64,000 bases of DNA from Parelaphostrongylus tenuis (lineage: Eukaryota > Nematoda > Chromadorea > Rhabditida > Metastrongylidae): positions 1 through 64,000 of the forward strand of contig JAHQIW010006963.1 in the NCBI GenBank assembly GCA_019055375.1, in the 5' to 3' direction. A program made the translations under genes and the position numbers. Each line of letters begins with the position of its first letter. Position 1 is the stretch's first letter. The notes beneath the pieces are model-generated. The model was not told where the DNA came from and made no database searches. It was given only the letters and a program-made list of their open reading frames with translations. This document shows positions 29,691 through 60,300 of the stretch, piece after piece.

Positions 29691-29749
29691 TCGTAACAAT
29701 TCAAAAGCTCGACTTTATATAAACCTCGGCATAATTAGTTGTCAAATGA

Positions 29750-30215
29750 AAATCAAGAAACTTTTCTTGATTAGCTGGCGCGAGGTTGGTAAATTAGTCG
29801 TAGAAATTCGGCTGACGTTTCGGCGACCCGCCTTCTTCAGAGCTTGGGTGTATGTAGTATTAGTCTATTTGAATGATTCAGATGGTCTTATTTATACGCT
29901 GCCTAGATCAGGTTAAAAGATTAAACGCAGAAAGGGCGCGAGATCTCGCGTGATCTTTCGGGTTCATTTCGGGGTTTTAAGCGTTTTTTAAAATGCCTCA
30001 AAAGTTTTGCGCGTGGACGTTTTTGATTCCTGCGCTAGGATTGTGACACTCACATCAAAATCCTTGTTGTTGTGTTTTTGTGCCCTATGTAGACCTAAAA
30101 ATTTGGTTTTATCTAATTTAGAGTTACTATCTAGATGTTCTTTTGTGCGGATGAAAAGTGGTCTACCCGTTTCGCCTATATATTCCTTCCCGCATGTTTT
30201 ACATTTGCATTGGAT
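29750..30215 (-). mobile_element. Penelope-like element, 5'-truncated: GIY-YIG endonuclease and ribozyme tail
   Basis: The minus strand reads CKCKTCGKEYIGETGRPLFI and RTKEHLDSNSKLDKTKF, then LGLHRAQKHNNKDFDVSVTI and ESKTSTRKTFEAF. This is the C-terminal GIY-YIG nuclease (YIG motif and catalytic Arg in GRPL) of Penelope-like retroelements. After the coding end, 29755-29915 carries the repeat with a class B hammerhead motif at 29810-29844. The 5' truncation point is near 30215, where it meets an opposite copy. GIY-YIG nuclease cuts the target during insertion; this fragment lacks the reverse transcriptase. Confidence 0.85.
29810..29844 (-). ncRNA. Hammerhead-like ribozyme (class B), minus copy
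   Basis: Same layout as 30372-30406, with helix II GGCG / CGCC around GGT. Helix I has one outer mismatch (AGCT against AGCC). It is the sense-strand copy in the 3' tail of the truncated Penelope-like element. Confidence 0.6.
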
Positions 30216-30480
30216 AAACGCCCAAAATCCCGAAATGAACCGGAAGGACGAGTGTGTCACCATCACAAGAGATCTCGCGCCTTTTCTTCGTTTGATGTTC
30301 TAACCTGACCTAGGCAGCATATGAATAAGACCATCCGAATCATTCAAATAGACTAATACTACATACGCCCAGGCTCTGAAGAAGGCGGGTCGCCGAAACG
30401 TCAGCCAAATTTCTACGACTAATTTACCAATCGCGCGTCAGCTAATCAAGATAAGTTTTCTCGATTCTCATATAACAACT
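30215..30480 (+). mobile_element. Penelope-like element end, opposite orientation
   Basis: The plus strand reads NPEMNRKDECVTITRDLAPF and then a stop, the conserved C-terminus of nematode Penelope-like proteins. The same repeat as 29755-29915 follows in inverted orientation (30300-30465), with a class B hammerhead at 30372-30406. It is therefore a second 5'-truncated copy fused head to head with the first. Confidence 0.8.
30372..30406 (+). ncRNA. Hammerhead-like ribozyme (class B)
   Basis: GGCT (helix I), CTGAAGA core, A, helix II GGCG with loop GGT and CGCC, GAAA, minimal helix III AC/GU, cleavage-site C at 30402, AGCC closing helix I. Core bases are intact. One extra A precedes helix II, and helix III has no loop, so activity would need a dimer or helper contacts. 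Confidence 0.65.
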
Positions 30481-30539
30481 AATAGAGATATATATCTGAG
30501 TGTGGTATTAATAAAACACTCGAAATCAGCGGCATATTA

Positions 30540-31900: not shown

Positions 31901-31979
31901 TGAAAACCTTAATTTACTAATCAGATCTCTTATTTTCATTGTAGTGCAGCGAACGATGCGTGAAGTTCATGTGTGTGGT

Positions 31980-32160
31980 CCGCAACGAGTCAATTAATAT
32001 TTCGCAAAGCGTGTGGCAGCGAATACATCGGCGAAACGAATAGGCCACTCTATGTCTGTGAAGAAGAACACGTAGTCAGCAAAGCTGAAGCTAGTACAAA
32101 GACTTCACTAGGCGCGCATAGGACACAGACACATGACGGGGCGACTTTGAAGTAGCAATA
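31980..32160 (+). pseudogene. Penelope-like GIY-YIG endonuclease fragment
   Basis: The plus strand reads ACGSEYIGETNRPLYVCEEE and then a SLGAHRTQTHDG region, aligning with the GIY-YIG core of the 30-kb copy but clearly a different family. The frame breaks after 32155 and no ribozyme follows. Inactive. Confidence 0.7.
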
Positions 32161-34700: not shown

Positions 34701-34860
34701 GTTAGTAAGTCTTATATTGATAAATGGACCGCAGAACAACGAAGCAGTGAGTATTGAAGAGCTGATTACTATGCGATATAACATCTACGTACTAAATTTC
34801 ATATGTTTGGTTATGAAAAGGGTTGAACTGAGCAGACAGCACGTCAATTTGACTCTTCCA

Positions 34861-34896
34861 GGCTCTGATGTAAGCGAAACCGCCGAAACGTAAGTC
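34861..34896 (+). ncRNA. Degenerate hammerhead-like motif
   Basis: GGCTCTGATGT, a GCG/CGC hairpin, GCCGAAACGTAAGTC. Resembles class B with a damaged core (TGT in place of TGA). Similar degenerate motifs lie at 39568 and 43984. Confidence 0.3.
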
Positions 34897-49329: not shown

Positions 49330-50630
49330 CTGAATTCTACGAACTGCTCATGACCGATCGTTGGGGTTGAATGTAGAGCAGACAAATATCGATGGCATCA
49401 GAAGCACGCTGATTAGGAGAATACCACTGTGGAAGAAATGAAGGCATTCATGGCTATGTGTATGCAATTATGCGTTGTGAAGCTACCACACCTGAAAAAT
49501 TTTCGAGCAGTTATCCGCCTTTTGGAAACCCCGTCTTAGAAGTAGATTTCATGCTAGACGTAGATTTCTGAAGATTCTGAGGAATTTGCATTTTCGGGCA
49601 GCTCCAAGTGGGATGGAAAGGACAAACTACACAAAATCACGAAGCTTTAGCTTGTCCATAGGAATTGTCAAGTTGCATATAGACCTGAGAAGAATGTATG
49701 CATCGATGGATCAATGGTACCCTTCAAAGGAAAAATCGTTTTATTGACAATACCTTCCCAGCAAGAGACACAGATACAGGGTGAAACTATTCAAACAGTG
49801 CAGTGTAGGAGGATACATGTACAACACGATCCCATACGCAGGTGCAAGCAAACTCTTAAGCGTGCCGGACGAAATGCAGACAGTATTGTGATGGACCTAA
49901 TGGACGGCTTTTCAGATGAGGGCCGACAGCTCTATACTGAAAATTGCTACATCAGTGTTGAATTTGCCGAGGCTCTTTTATGCACTACCCACTGGAGAAA
50001 GTGCAGGCATTGGCCATATAGAATAAGAGGAGTAATGCTGCTCAGGCGTAATGACTACAGAGATGTAGTGATGACTTCTACCGCACACAGTCCCATAATC
50101 AATCCAACGACGAGAAAATATGAGGTCGTGGAGAGTTACAAGAAGAACAAATTGCTCGTCTATTTCACTGACCAAATGGCTGCTTATTGCTTATGACCAA
50201 GAAGACATAGCAATGGTGAGTGAATTTTGCTGCGATATTGCTTTGCAATATCTAATTTACAGTTCAGGTATACCCGCCTGTTCTTCCACCTGATCACGCA
50301 TACGAGCCTTATGAACGCGTGGAAAATCTACAAAGATTGCGTAGAGAACATTTCATTCACCGATTTCTGTATATTTATGTCAGGTACTCACAAGATTATG
50401 TCGCTCCACAGCCGACACCCAGGCGTACTCTCGAAGTCACTTTGCCACGTCATGGACGGTGTTAGAAAATTGTTAATAAGTGTAAATACTGCTTATGCTC
50501 GAAACAAAGCTCATAGTGTAAGCACGAGGTGCAGTCGATGTAAGCAGTATATTCGTTTACCTTGTTCTAATACTGCTTATTGGAGATGTGTTGTTAGGCG
50601 CTTTCATGTTCGACAAAATGTATAATTTCA
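49330..50630 (+). pseudogene. piggyBac-family transposase relic
   Basis: The plus strand shows piggyBac transposase landmarks in order across frameshifts. TVEEMKAFMAMCMQ and VVKLPHLKNF come first, then RRFLKILRNLHF. MVPFKGKIVL follows (normally preceded by the CIDE motif with the first catalytic Asp; here VCIDGS). IVMDLMDGFSDEGRQLYTEN comes next (second Asp region), then DYRDVVMTSTAHSP and KNKLLVYFTDQMAAYC (third Asp, D of FTDQ). Last is a C-terminal cysteine-rich stretch: CKYCLCSKQ, then RCSRCKQYIRLPCSN. Frameshifts near 49780 and after 50196 and stops in the Cys-rich domain make it inactive. No TTAA-flanked inverted repeats were identified. Confidence 0.8.
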
Positions 50631-51324: not shown

Positions 51325-51700
51325 ATCTTGATTAGCTGACGCGAGGTTGGTAAATTAATCGTAGAAGTTGGGCTGACGTTTCGGCGATCCGCCTTCTTCA
51401 GAGCCTGGGCATATGTGGTGTTAGTCTACTTGAATGAATCGGATGGTCTTATTTATGTGCTGCCTAGGTCAGGTTAAAACATCAAACGAAGAAAGGGCGC
51501 GAGCTATCGTGTGATGGTGACGCATTCGTCCTTCCGGTTCATTTAGGGGTTTTTGGAATCTATCCAAAATGCCTCAAAAGTTTTGCGCATGGATGTTTTT
51601 GATTCCTGCGCTAGGATTGTGACAGTCACATCAAAATCCTTATTGTTGTGTTTTTGTGCCTATGTAAACCTAAAGGTTTGGTTTTGTCTGTCTCGAGCAT
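51325..51700 (-). mobile_element. Penelope-like element 3' end with ribozyme
   Basis: The minus strand at 51480-51690 encodes, with stops, the same endonuclease tail as the 30-kb copy (LGLHRHKNTT-like, then the MNRKDECVTIT equivalent). It continues into the shared 3' repeat, with the intact class B hammerhead at 51371-51405. 5'-truncated near 51700. Confidence 0.75.
51371..51405 (-). ncRNA. Hammerhead-like ribozyme (class B), best copy
   Basis: Minus strand: GGCT pairs with AGCC (helix I), core CTGAAGA, then A, helix II GGCG / CGCC with loop GAT, GAAA, minimal helix III AC/GT, cleavage-site C. All listed pairs are Watson-Crick. Compared with 30372-30406 only the helix II loop differs, so the structure is conserved between copies. 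Confidence 0.7.
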
Positions 51701-52119: not shown

Positions 52120-52550
52120 TACCCAATATGTGGAGTACTGTGCAAAAACGTTTGCGTCAGCGGGATTCGAACCCAAATCTCACTGTTCCCGGGAGCGTAT
52201 GCTAACCATTGCACTACCGACGCTCGTTTTTGCAAAGCACTCTTGCAGTCAGAATAGAAATTATACCACTGCAAATGGCAGTCAAAATAAAAAGAATTTG
52301 GACTGATTATCGATATCCAATGTCTGTCAACACAAGTGGGTTCAATGCCGATAGCGGCTGCGCCGTCAGACCGTCGACGGTTGGCTGTTGGCAGACAACG
52401 CGTTATAGCGTAAATAAGAGTGCTGTGCAAAACAAGCGTCGGTAGTGCAACGGTTAGCATACGCTTCCAGAAAGAGTGAGATCTGGGTTTGAATCCCGGC
52501 TGACGTAAACCTTTTTGCACAGCACTCCACATATTGGGTATACTATCTCA
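52120..52550. repeat. Inverted pair of tRNA-like repeats
   Basis: Two tRNA-like heads face each other, at about 52150-52225 (minus) and 52437-52505 (plus). The plus head has AGTGCAACGGTTAGCATACG (A box) and GGGTTTGAATCCC (B box). Outer ends share CCAATATGTGGAGTACTGTG and its reverse complement, so the whole may move as one inverted-repeat element. Confidence 0.65.
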
Positions 52551-54329: not shown

Positions 54330-54689
54330 TTACCAGGCCACATGACAAGTCGGCTCAAATAATAATGAAAGGATCTAAAGGATCTATTGAAATTTGAGCG
54401 TGGTCTTAAAAAAGCACTCGAAATAAAGGTACAAATGGCAGTCTGAAGGGAATTCTATTCAGGTCTGGGATATTGTTCTCTTGCGACCTGATTCCACTTT
54501 TGGAATATTTCCGAGTGGCAAATGTTTTGTTGCCGTTGAAATGGCAACTTTTCGTGACAAGTTTAACGATTCGTTCCTTTCCTCTTCTCCTGTGCACACG
54601 TTTTTAGCCATTCAAAACATGTTTTTAATTGGAGATTTTTTTCATGTGTGAAGGATGAGATGAAAGATGATTAACCAAAATGTTTTTGT

Positions 54690-55290
54690 TAATTGGTTTT
54701 CAAAACCATTTTGTACTATAGCCACTATCCAACAGTTTCACTTGGATGTTTAAGAATCGAAGTCTGCTCCCGTCTGGACTCTCTCGCGTAAATTTGATAT
54801 GATCTGACTGTCCGTTCAAAACTTCAAAACATATGTCAATTTCTTGTGTGGAAGGGGCAATGAAACAATCGTCTATATTACGGCAATAGAGCGATGGGCG
54901 GTGAGCGAAAACTGGAGCCTCCACTTTATACATGAAAGCGATAGCAAGACTAGGTGCCAAACGTTTGTCCCATGGCTAACCCCCTGAGTTGTGTGAAATA
55001 TCCACCCGACCTCCGAAAATTGAACAACCAAGACATTGTTTTAGAGGGGATTAGTTGTGAATTAAGAAGCCATACATATTTACTTTTTGCTCATTTTCTG
55101 TTAGAAGTTTAAAAATGGCTTGCATTTCAGAGTCATTTGATACGTTTGTATAGAGTGAGGTAACATCAAATGACTCCATTACGTGCGAGTTGCTTGGTTG
55201 CGCGCAAAGAAGGTGATCTAGGAACATTTGAGTATTGGGTAGATGGGTTGGTATGAATTTAAGCACCTGAGTAAAATTTCAACCGCCATT
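54690..55290 (-). pseudogene. Penelope-like reverse transcriptase fragment
   Basis: Minus strand. 55051-55266 reads VMESFDVTSLYTNVSNDSEM, the Penelope RT motif with the first catalytic Asp (DVTSLYTNV). 54700-54960 reads RPSLYCRNIDDCFIAPSTQE (the YxDD-type box), then GQSDHIKFTRE and LRFLNIQVKLLDSGYSTKWF. The spacing between the two fits a Penelope-like RT palm. A stop and frameshift near 54960-55050 separate them. No endonuclease follows to the left, where the tandem class A repeats begin. Confidence 0.82.
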
Positions 55291-57679: not shown

Positions 57680-58270
57680 TGGCCTACTAGACTACGCCCG
57701 CTAGGTCAAGATCATTCAGTTTAAAGTGAACATGTATGGCAGCTGAGTAGAAATCGATGCTCCCTAGTTGGCTCAAGGCCATCAAACTGACCATGACGAC
57801 ATAGGCGCTGCACTGAATGCTACCGAGGTTCGCTAAGGCTGGACAACGTGTTTGTGCTCAAAAAAGCTAGAAAAGTTCTTACGAGGTGTAGCCAATGTTA
57901 GAATCCAAAATCTACTTCTCAAAGGGTCAGATAATTCACATAGGGATTGCATAGTCTGAGTACGAGAGTTTCATATTAAAAATTGTCGATTGTAGTGGCT
58001 CACAAATAGGTTGCCTTCAGATATGAGGACTGTTGAATGATTTAGGATGTGCAAAATGGCTAGTGCATGTACAATTTGCAATTGTACAGATTGTATTATG
58101 ATATCAAACTGATAAATGTTCTCCAATGCTTGTTTTCTAGGATTAATTGTTTATGTTCGATGTTTTCAATACCAGTAGTTGATTATTGAATAAATAAATT
58201 GAGTACAACGTTTATAGTAACAGAACTATGTGAATTACTTCTCAGAAACATGCATTTTTTAGAACAGTTG
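57680..58270. other. No gene seen
   Basis: No supported feature. Confidence 0.3.
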
Positions 58271-58373
58271 GAAGGGTTCAAAAGATCGACTGTTTTTTCA
58301 ACCCCCAAAAAAACATTCAATATAATTCCAAAAAAAAAGAATGATTCAAGCTCAAAAAGGGGTTGGTACGCCA

Positions 58374-58421
58374 GGGTCATACACCGGTGTTTCGGAGGTT
58401 CGTCCTCCTCATCAGTGACCC
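58374..58421 (-). ncRNA. Hammerhead ribozyme (class C), intact
   Basis: Minus strand, 48 nt. Helix I is GGGTCA / TGACCC, six pairs. Core CTGATGA. Helix II is GGAGG / CCTCC with loop ACGAA. GAAA. Helix III is ACACC / GGTGT (fully self-complementary, or three pairs with a CCGG loop). Cleavage-site A precedes TGACCC. Every conserved core position is present. Confidence 0.88.
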
Positions 58422-58552
58422 CCGCCCCACATTCAGCCCTGCATTGAAGCAAGGAGGGAGGCGTATGTGGTGATGGCACAGTGTACTATGACACTGTACC
58501 ATCACCACCTCTCAGTCGATAGATTTTTGCCCTGCAGGGCAATGTGGGGCGG

Positions 58553-58599
58553 GGGTCACTGATGAGGAGGACGAACCTCCGAAACACAGTGTATGACCC
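58553..58599 (+). ncRNA. Hammerhead ribozyme (class C), intact
   Basis: GGGTCA 58553-58558 pairs with TGACCC 58594-58599. Core CTGATGA 58559-58565. Helix II is GGAGG/CCTCC. GAAA 58581-58584. Helix III is ACAC A GTGT. Cleavage-site A is 58593. Helix III differs from the inverted copy but still pairs. Confidence 0.88.
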
Positions 58600-58822
58600 T
58601 GGCTACCAACCACTTTTTGAGCTTGAATCATTCTTTTTTTTTGGAATTATATTGAATGTTTTTTTGGGGGTTTCAAAAACAGTCGATCTTTTGAATATAG
58701 TTTTGATCTAACAGCAAAAATCTATCGACTGAGAGGTGGTGATGGTACAGTGTCATAGTACACTGTGCCATCACCACATACGCCTCCCTCCTTGCTTCAA
58801 TGCAGGGCTGAATGTGGGGCGG

Positions 58823-58868
58823 GGGTCACTGATAGGAGGACGAACCTCCGAAACACCGGTGTATGACC
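58823..58868 (+). ncRNA. Hammerhead ribozyme (class C), broken by one-base deletion
   Basis: Same as the other two copies, except that the core reads CTGATAGGAGG: one G is lost from CTGATGAGGAGG. Loss of a core base should abolish cleavage although all three helices remain. Confidence 0.8.
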
Positions 58869-58919
58869 CTGGGCGTACCAACCCCTTTTGAGCTTGAATC
58901 ATTCTTTTTTTTTAGTTGG

Positions 58920-60300
58920 AAGGGTGTTTGTTTCGTTTTAAAAGGTGTGAAATTGTGAGACAAGTGGAGCGTTGTTTTCACTAAAACTAAGGTTGTAGAA
59001 GTCCTTCCAATAATAATCTGCCTACCTGTTCGTAGTGATGAGCTACCCTCAAAATCTAAATTCCACTAGATAAGACCATTGAACTCACTGTAAAATTGGA
59101 GGTCGACTGCTCCGAAAGCAAAATTTTTTTTGTTAGAAGCGCAAGCGTGAGATGTCCTCTATAGAAGCCAAGTTCAGTAATAAAATTCCATTTTTCAAGC
59201 TATCGAATAACTGCTAATAGAAAATAGCCCGAAGAAAAGGCTCTTTTCTAGAATGAACCAAGAAATTACGAGACATTCCACAAACTGCGACTGCATTGTA
59301 CAAGAGTTTGTATTCACAAGCTAGGATTTCTAAGACAATTGGGAATTCTTCTTGCTCGAAATTCGTTCATAAAGCCCTTTCAATGATAGTCTACTTTTTA
59401 GCGATAAAGTTTTTCAAAGGTTAGAATCTCTCTATGTATACCAAAAAATCCGACCCAAAGTTGAAGAAATAATCTCCGGTTGCAAAACCTAATTTTCTTC
59501 CACCAGAAAATGTACTAAGAAAATTTTCTCATAAAAAAAGATTGATCTTTAGATCAAAACTTTATAATCTATTGATTGCAACATCATGAATAAATTACTA
59601 AAAAATCTTCATCAATAGCTGAAATTATGTTTTTTTTCGCAAGGACGTGGTTTACCCCTTGAAACATGCAGTGTTTTGGGAAACAATGGTGTACATTCCA
59701 CTAAAATTAACCATACAAAAGTCTTTTCAGAGATATTTCATCACTTATTGGAAAAAATGTTTTCATAACACTCCAATTAACCCAGATTTGTATGGAAGCG
59801 CGCACCAATTTTCGGCCGTTCGAACGGGGAGACCAAATGAGGGTAAAATGACCCCTACTGTCGGCAAAAGGCTGAAACAATTTTGTCGAACTAAAGCATA
59901 AGCATAAAAAAGTATTATCGATGGTAGAAAATGAGAGATTCTTGAAACAGACTAAATGCAACAAAAATTTCTATTTGCTGATGACCTGCAAAAAGAGAAG
60001 CGAAAAAGCAAATTTGAGGAGAATCGAGGGAGTCACCAAAAAATAATTTCGATTTCTGGAAAAACGTAACTCATTAGAATCTTTATGAATAAAATCTCTG
60101 AAGAGCTTAAATGCTGAAGAAATACTATTCCTTTCAAAATTCGCCCAACTGCAAAGAGACATTTTTATAGACAAGTTTGTTATTTTGTCACTTTTATAGC
60201 AGTGCTTTGATGTTATAACTATAGGTCCCAAGAATACTGAGTGACATGCGAAAATCTACACCTCAGACGAAAGTTGAATACGTGTCTCACCTATATCGCA
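58920..60300. other. No gene seen; repeat patches
   Basis: 58945-59250 shares GTTTTCACTAAAACTAAGG and TCAAGCTATCGAATAACTGC-like blocks with dispersed repeats. The 84-codon plus frame at 59647-59901 has no recognised domain. Confidence 0.3.

Follow-up and report, generated by a model that had tools for sequence, protein, structure and literature searches.

What is the short insertion near the right-hand end of this 64,000-nt stretch of DNA (the window), which carries hammerhead ribozymes on both strands, and which enzyme put it there? Metazoan non-LTR retrozymes were defined in coral, mussel and axolotl (Cervera and de la Pena 2020, PMC7229834; this and the other papers cited below are quoted from excerpts of their text). 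Penelope-like elements (PLEs) were named there as a strong candidate mobiliser of retrozymes, on the grounds that the two share genomes, are found in tandem and possess type I hammerheads. The insertions described here bear a PLE-type signature. We propose, with a probability of roughly three in four, that the window insertion is a non-autonomous, non-LTR nematode retrozyme mobilised in trans by the PLEs of the same genome.

The DNA between positions 58266 and 58925 is one insertion, consisting of an element at 58278-58913 flanked by target-site duplications (TSDs). The original prediction had placed a compact element at 58277-58916; the compact element stands, while its ends had to be shifted and the bordering 12-bp duplication had been missed. 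The three unit copies that it described, one of them inverted, correspond to an inverted arm on the minus strand and a direct arm of 1.4 units on the plus strand. Within the insertion, a 120-nt pair of repeats is perfectly complementary, a second pair of 92 nt is complementary at 97%, and direct copies lie ~270 nt apart. Each full unit contains the long hairpin that had been described as perfect, with arms that are 94% complementary and an odd pair that is G-U in RNA. No stop-to-stop frame of at least 120 aa overlaps the 636-bp element, which is therefore without the reverse transcriptase (RT)/GIY-YIG open reading frame (ORF) of an autonomous PLE. The coordinates of all parts are listed in Table 1.

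Table 1 Features of the window insertion (locus L048 of the family set); unit phase 1 is the first base after the predicted cut.
Feature	Position	Strand	Remarks
Left target-site duplication AGTTGGAAGGGT, 12 bp	58266..58277		Direct repeat abutting element end
Inverted arm, 0.94 unit	58278..58530	-	RNA-sense 3' end 58278, unit phase 102, start site 2
Hammerhead ribozyme A, intact core	58374..58421	-	Predicted cut between 58380 and 58379
Long hairpin, inverted unit, 18-nt arms	58467..58508	-	
Arm junction	58531..58532		Within 12-bp palindrome GCCCTGCAGGGC (58529-58540)
Direct arm, 1.4 units	58533..58913	+	RNA-sense 3' end 58913, unit phase 52, start site 1
Hammerhead ribozyme B, intact core, private helix III ACACAGTGT	58553..58599	+	Predicted cut after 58593
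Complete cut-to-cut unit, 270 nt (family mode 271)	58594..58863	+	RNA fold -94.7 kcal/mol, z -5.4
Start-site-1 motif AATTATATTGAA	58645..58656	+	Identical to motif at 3' start site of PLE copy L060
Stem-loop CAGTCGAT...ATCGACTG, contains start site 2	58680..58731	+	Resembles segment at PLE ORF start
Long hairpin, direct unit, 18 pairs including one G-U	58736..58777	+	
Hammerhead ribozyme C, core broken, G8 missing, reads CTGATAGG	58823..58869	+	
Right target-site duplication AGTTGGAAGGGT, 12 bp	58914..58925		Direct repeat abutting element end

When both strands of the 64-kb window were scanned for the hammerhead core plus helices, 58415(-) and 58559(+) were the two positions recovered, whereas 20 shuffled versions of the window (single-base shuffles) yielded no hammerhead. 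Three hammerheads, two of them with complete cores, had been predicted by eye; the scan recovered both complete ones at exactly the coordinates given for them, and the third lacks G8. The proposed helix I (GGGTCA/TGACCC), helix II (GGAGG/CCTCC) and self-complementary helix III are all present. The Rfam hammerhead models, proposed as a check whose failure would count against the prediction, did not recognise them: no hammerhead model reached its gathering score in the region, and relaxing the limit to an E value of 10 gave 15 matches, again without a hammerhead. A match to MIR7723 across the inverted arms (37.3 bits against a gathering score of 200) was set aside as an artefact of the long inverted repeat. 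Viral and prokaryotic contig collections contained no match to the hammerhead, whether as an exact or as a gapped pattern, a result of little weight. Helix III had been said to differ between copies while still pairing. The variant exists, and it does not reflect recurrent covariation, as 149 of 179 hammerhead copies (40 loci, at most eight edits from the intact sequence) are identical in carrying ACACCGGTGT, while ACACAGTGT occurs once, in the window; helix III covariation was accordingly rejected.

Across the units examined, variation in the hammerhead is 0.0055 per site (0.0075 at core positions) compared to 0.029 elsewhere in the unit. Of the 271 circular windows along the unit, one varies less than the hammerhead. 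The unit strands at about phases 81-100 and 131-140 are also quiet (0.007-0.011), the bases between them less so (0.019-0.037).

The element is multicopy, as the original prediction required of a repeat family. At least 321 matches, including arrays with a period of ~271, were found in the 481.5-Mb assembly (5105 contigs), a lower bound obtained with 40 of 1603 candidates scored. From these, 40 loci (L009-L048) were sampled as the best matches to a two-armed query rather than at random; two of them, L028 and L029, resemble copies of one locus. The sampled loci contain 104 complete cut-to-cut units with a modal length of 271 nt (48/104), and the longest tandem arms reach 10.3 units.

We defined the TSD as the longest exact string common to both flanks at the array ends. 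Exact flank repeats of at least 12 bp were found at 27 of the 40 loci and in 6 of 400 mismatched-flank controls. Six further loci with flank repeats of 8-9 bp were also kept (repeats of at least 8 bp occur in 58/400 controls), giving 33 kept loci; L028, L029, L031, L033, L041, L043 and L045, with repeats of 6-7 bp, were left out. Among the 33, the TSD has a median length of 12 bp and an AT content of 0.77 compared to 0.60 in the flanks. The insertion ends vary in unit phase, and there is no LTR structure. The retrozyme family is real and mobile, and probably that of a nematode.

The arms follow a common geometry. Path-based decomposition of the 33 kept loci against one natural unit gave a minus-then-plus order in 27, a single arm in six (L019, L024, L026, L032, L038 and L040) and a plus-then-minus order in none. 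Whenever two arms are present (27/33) they stand head-to-head with the RNA 3' ends outward, and none of the 33 loci is tail-to-tail. Restricting the set to TSDs of at least 12 bp (n = 27) leaves 21 two-armed and six single-arm loci. The two-armed fraction may be inflated because the query itself is two-armed. Of the 23 kept loci within L018-L047, which were first listed through approximately query 191-637 (the direct arm plus a near-palindromic hairpin), two arms are present in 17, and the reversed order in none. The left-out loci are mixed: a minus-plus order is seen in L045 and in L043, where the plus part measures 16 nt, whereas L041 consists essentially of a minus arm, and L028, L029 and L033 contain plus arms alone. 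In L031, ~200 bp separate a plus array from a downstream inverted piece that is 78.6% identical; we read this piece as a separate older copy, and it makes L031 the one locus that could count against the head-to-head rule. At L018, ~350 bp without a clear unit match lie between the arms (about 346-699 of the element).

The outer ends suggest where synthesis began. At 51 of the 66 outer ends of the kept loci the arm touches the duplication, and the phases of these ends fall into two main clusters, with 29 at 99-107, 15 at 51-65 and the other 7 at 11-49. Both start-site clusters, ~45 nt apart, occur alike on left and right ends. At least three bases of homology to the target were present at 24 of the 51 ends; with the targets of other ends as control and both directions counted, the mean was 6.5 and the maximum in 5000 shuffles was 14. 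Judging by the two clusters and the target homology, the target DNA appears to prime inside the unit, mainly at two places and from both sides.

These features also bear on the view that we are dealing with an ordinary satellite or foldback repeat, spread by recombination, in which the hammerhead-like motifs are incidental. Tandem arrays of up to ~10 units and the silence of Rfam would suit such a repeat. Retrotransposition is indicated, however, by the TSDs, by the clustering of start sites, by the homology to the target and by the dispersal of the copies, and the constancy of the hammerhead within the unit speaks against an incidental motif, so that we regard the satellite explanation as extremely improbable.

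The original prediction had seen no retroelement protein nearby; this was mistaken, as a Penelope RT match (E 2e-68) lies at 54433-55272(-), together with further Penelope pieces. The fragment is 48.8% identical to the ORF of the PLE copy L061 over 287 aligned residues, and the window pieces at 29916-30300, 31967-32152 and 51477-51692 match the GIY-YIG part of that ORF. In L061 itself, RVT_1 and GIY-YIG domains lie in an open frame of 893 aa, and an inverted partial copy of 99.3% identity is found upstream; its closest named relatives are found in Necator, Ancylostoma and Haemonchus, which makes a strongylid nematode the probable host. In the assembly, at least 150 matches to the GIY-YIG domain exceed the cut-off (150 of 1723 candidates scored), a count of domain matches rather than of verified PLEs. 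A PLE pLTR motif is present in all 12 loci around the best GIY-YIG matches (L049-L060).

The PLEs share the geometry of the retrozyme. Among the matches listed, 22 pairs of neighbouring GIY-YIG domains lie less than 6 kb apart; 20 of these are minus-plus, none is plus-minus, and one pair falls on each strand in the same orientation. In the minus-plus order the pairs stand head-to-head, and the 3' domain faces outward. Three PLE copies were checked for duplications: L061 has a TSD of 12 bp and L052 one of 14 bp, while L060 is without a clear TSD.

Similar behaviour has been described for PLEs of other animals. The purified lizard PLE Poseidon PAc cleaves and extends both target strands (PMC11167929). 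According to the excerpted text, PLE cDNA starts at internal sites whose spacing corresponds to the 30-40-bp 'tail', with no strand difference; an AC-rich stem-loop is the commonest start, and targets are AT-rich. In bdelloids, Penelope inserts mostly head-to-head, with junction palindromes and 8-10-bp TSDs, and self-priming was proposed (PMC3846280). The insertions described here resemble the PLEs of both reports in their head-to-head arms, junction palindromes, short TSDs and hammerhead motif, as well as in two start sites 30-45 nt apart, extension of both target strands and AT-rich targets. Unlike PLEs, the retrozyme is without a PLE ORF and measures 271 nt rather than ~3 kb, and on visual comparison helices II and III are fuller in its hammerhead than in that of the PLE. 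Two further differences concern the start sites: the main PAc start lies 111-118 bp into the ORF, whereas the PLE sites found here lie around the start codon, and the PAc start site is described as not homologous to the cut DNA, whereas a short target homology is clear in the retrozyme (PMC11167929).

We compared the sequences at the start sites of retrozyme and PLE. In the copies sampled, the 3' ends of PLEs either lie close to a GAATTATAT/AATTATATTGAA motif, in several cases a few bases short of it, or follow ACAGTCGGTCTTGGG ~40 nt farther along. In the retrozyme, AATTATATTGAA is found at the first start site, and ACAGTCGATCTT directly precedes the second. For windows of 40 bases at the PLE sites, the best match in the unit fell on or next to the corresponding phase; shuffles were as good in 34 of 2000 cases for site 1 and, in two PLE copies, in 7 or 81 of 2000 for site 2, in windows picked after the similarity had been noticed. 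A 240-nt PLE region at the ORF start matches the unit better than 1000 of 1000 shuffles, and that of a second copy better than 999 of 1000. For the whole 3.06-kb PLE against the unit, the similarity was not significant (264/1000 shuffles as good), and twelve 401-nt pieces aimed at PLE ORF starts gave only one short match, of 30 nt, in L071. When folded in isolation, the 52-53-nt segments of both unit and PLE form two stems, of 7-8 bp and 5 bp, with an asymmetric bulge between them, and by our own count two pairs are changed on both sides from one segment to the other; in longer PLE context, stem 1 of the PLE stem-loop has a pairing probability of only 0.06-0.16. These data are suggestive of common ancestry, or mimicry, of the start stem-loop between retrozyme and PLE.

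Could a LINE, for example of the RTE type, have moved the retrozyme instead, by target-primed reverse transcription with frequent twin priming? Twin priming by L1 yields the same head-to-head topology, and an ORF ~5 kb from the element in the window, without a Pfam match, is one that we take to be RTE-like. Published work leaves LINEs and PLEs both open as mobilisers, as far as the excerpts go (PMC7229834). However, the use of two internal start sites alike on both sides, the head-to-head order of 20 of the 22 neighbouring GIY-YIG pairs among the matches listed, the TSDs at two of the three PLE copies checked and the PLE motif matches at both retrozyme start sites all argue for a PLE, and we consider a LINE unlikely. 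Mobilisation by PLEs, on which the retrozyme would depend, is the best-supported candidate mechanism. The original suggestion of a non-autonomous ribozyme repeat, possibly moved by a PLE, gains from this combination of many copies, TSDs, head-to-head arms, two start sites and PLEs with the same geometry.

The arms also bear on the template. Divergence amounts to 0.30% between units in one arm, 0.48% between the arms of one insertion and 1.28% between loci. Random pairing of arms was as close in 0 of 5000 permutations for 21 loci, and in 2 of 5000 for the 19 loci remaining without L013 and L017; in two of the 21, L010 and L020, the two arms are not closer than average arms of other loci. The arms thus look as if one RNA template were primed from both cut strands. 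Of 19 fixed private variants, 18 are found in both arms and 16 belong to L013 and L017, while 82 private variants are present in only some units. Private variants are too few to serve as proof of a single template, and the single-template claim therefore rests on mean similarity.

Out of 60 arms, 45 are longer than one unit, and of the 60 inner ends one lies within 3 nt of the cut site. The usual template is therefore not the cut linear monomer, which we rejected as the main template. A circular template fits the arm data, with which an uncut multimer is equally compatible.

A different origin of the inverted arms would be fold-back self-priming of one cDNA or RNA in place of two independent primings. 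Palindromes of short length do form some of the junctions, and others coincide with the long hairpin or adjoin it (examples of such junctions are L010, L011 and the window insertion), and self-priming on an antisense template is argued for bdelloid PLEs in the excerpted text of PMC3846280. At ~5 of the 27 junctions, by our reading, however, the inner phases lie within 10 nt of each other, while the rest join unrelated phases, which favours two priming events; in addition, both outer ends show their own start-site clustering and target homology. Fold-back self-priming was rejected as a general mechanism on the junction phases, and we hold it to be improbable as the source of the arms.

Taken with PLE mobilisation, the following course of events may be envisaged. 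Head-to-tail retrozyme units would be transcribed, and cleavage by the hammerheads would release monomers of 271 nt; by analogy with published retrozymes, these would be circularised by a ligase of the host. The PLE protein would bind the retrozyme RNA and cut both strands of an AT-rich target ~12-14 bp apart. Each cut 3' end would then prime reverse transcription at one of the two internal sites ~45 nt apart, and each cDNA may circle the template several times. Joining of the two same-sense cDNAs at variable points would leave two head-to-head arms between target duplications.

A more specific version, to which we give slightly less than even odds, holds that the 271-nt ribozyme circle carries a copy of the PLE cDNA-start stem-loop, and that a PLE dimer grips the circle, primes from both cut strands and copies round it in two directions, yielding head-to-head rolling-circle arrays. 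If true, the partner that mobilises an animal retrozyme would be known, and a single mechanism would account for the inverted architecture of retrozyme and PLE. With two start sites, priming of both strands and head-to-head arms, the question of the mobiliser becomes testable with the existing purified PLE assay.

Like the metazoan non-LTR retrozymes of PMC7229834, the family combines a type I hammerhead, tandem units in the range of 170-400 nt, highly self-paired RNA, TSDs of more than 4 bp and PLEs in the same genome. Canonical type I hammerheads have tertiary contacts between helix I and helix II, and the mussel retrozyme families are reported there to be without most of the nucleotides involved. 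In contrast to the retrozymes described in those excerpts, the insertions found here are head-to-head and two-armed with two start sites, and the likeness is one of description. Hammerhead-bearing, putatively mobile repeats of a parasitic worm are known from Schistosoma (W elements, PMC8490949; Sm-alpha, PMC6155905). They belong to another phylum and are, as described in these sources, satellite-like rather than two-armed insertions. The original prediction of an undescribed family thus holds for the family, while the kind is already known (PMC7229834); what is new within this kind are two-armed, two-site retrozyme insertions. In the titles and abstract beginnings of the papers listed from the literature searched, to which most subscription papers and all bioRxiv preprints did not belong, we found neither nematode retrozymes nor two-armed retrozyme insertions.

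Several further observations were made on the PLEs. Their pLTRs contain a conserved minimal hammerhead-like motif with an extra A before helix II (L061 5491-5522 and 14 further places in L049-L061). A 37-nt hammerhead-like motif is 86-92% identical to that of L061 at three places in the window, where the coding DNA is ~67-69% identical. The window contains a head-to-head Penelope remnant at 29734-30483, with a 197-nt inverted repeat at 91%; the remnant includes fragments of the GIY-YIG part as well as two hammerhead-like pLTR motifs in inverted arrangement. At 51372-51692(-), a fragment of the Penelope GIY-YIG part is followed by the hammerhead-like motif CTGAAGAAGGCGGATCGCCGAAACGTC, and a diverged Penelope-type hammerhead-like motif, CTGATGTAAGCGAAACCGCCGAAACG, lies at 34845-34894(+). 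Penelope copies also occur in head-to-tail arrays with a period of ~2985 bp (contigs C2880, C1932 and C2909).

Apart from retroelements, the window holds a transposase fragment at 49651-50196(+) that matches DDE_Tnp_1_7, presumably of the piggyBac type. Two tRNA-like genes, at 52153-52223(-) and 52436-52507(+), stand in inverted order ~200 bp apart and are possibly tRNA-derived repeats.
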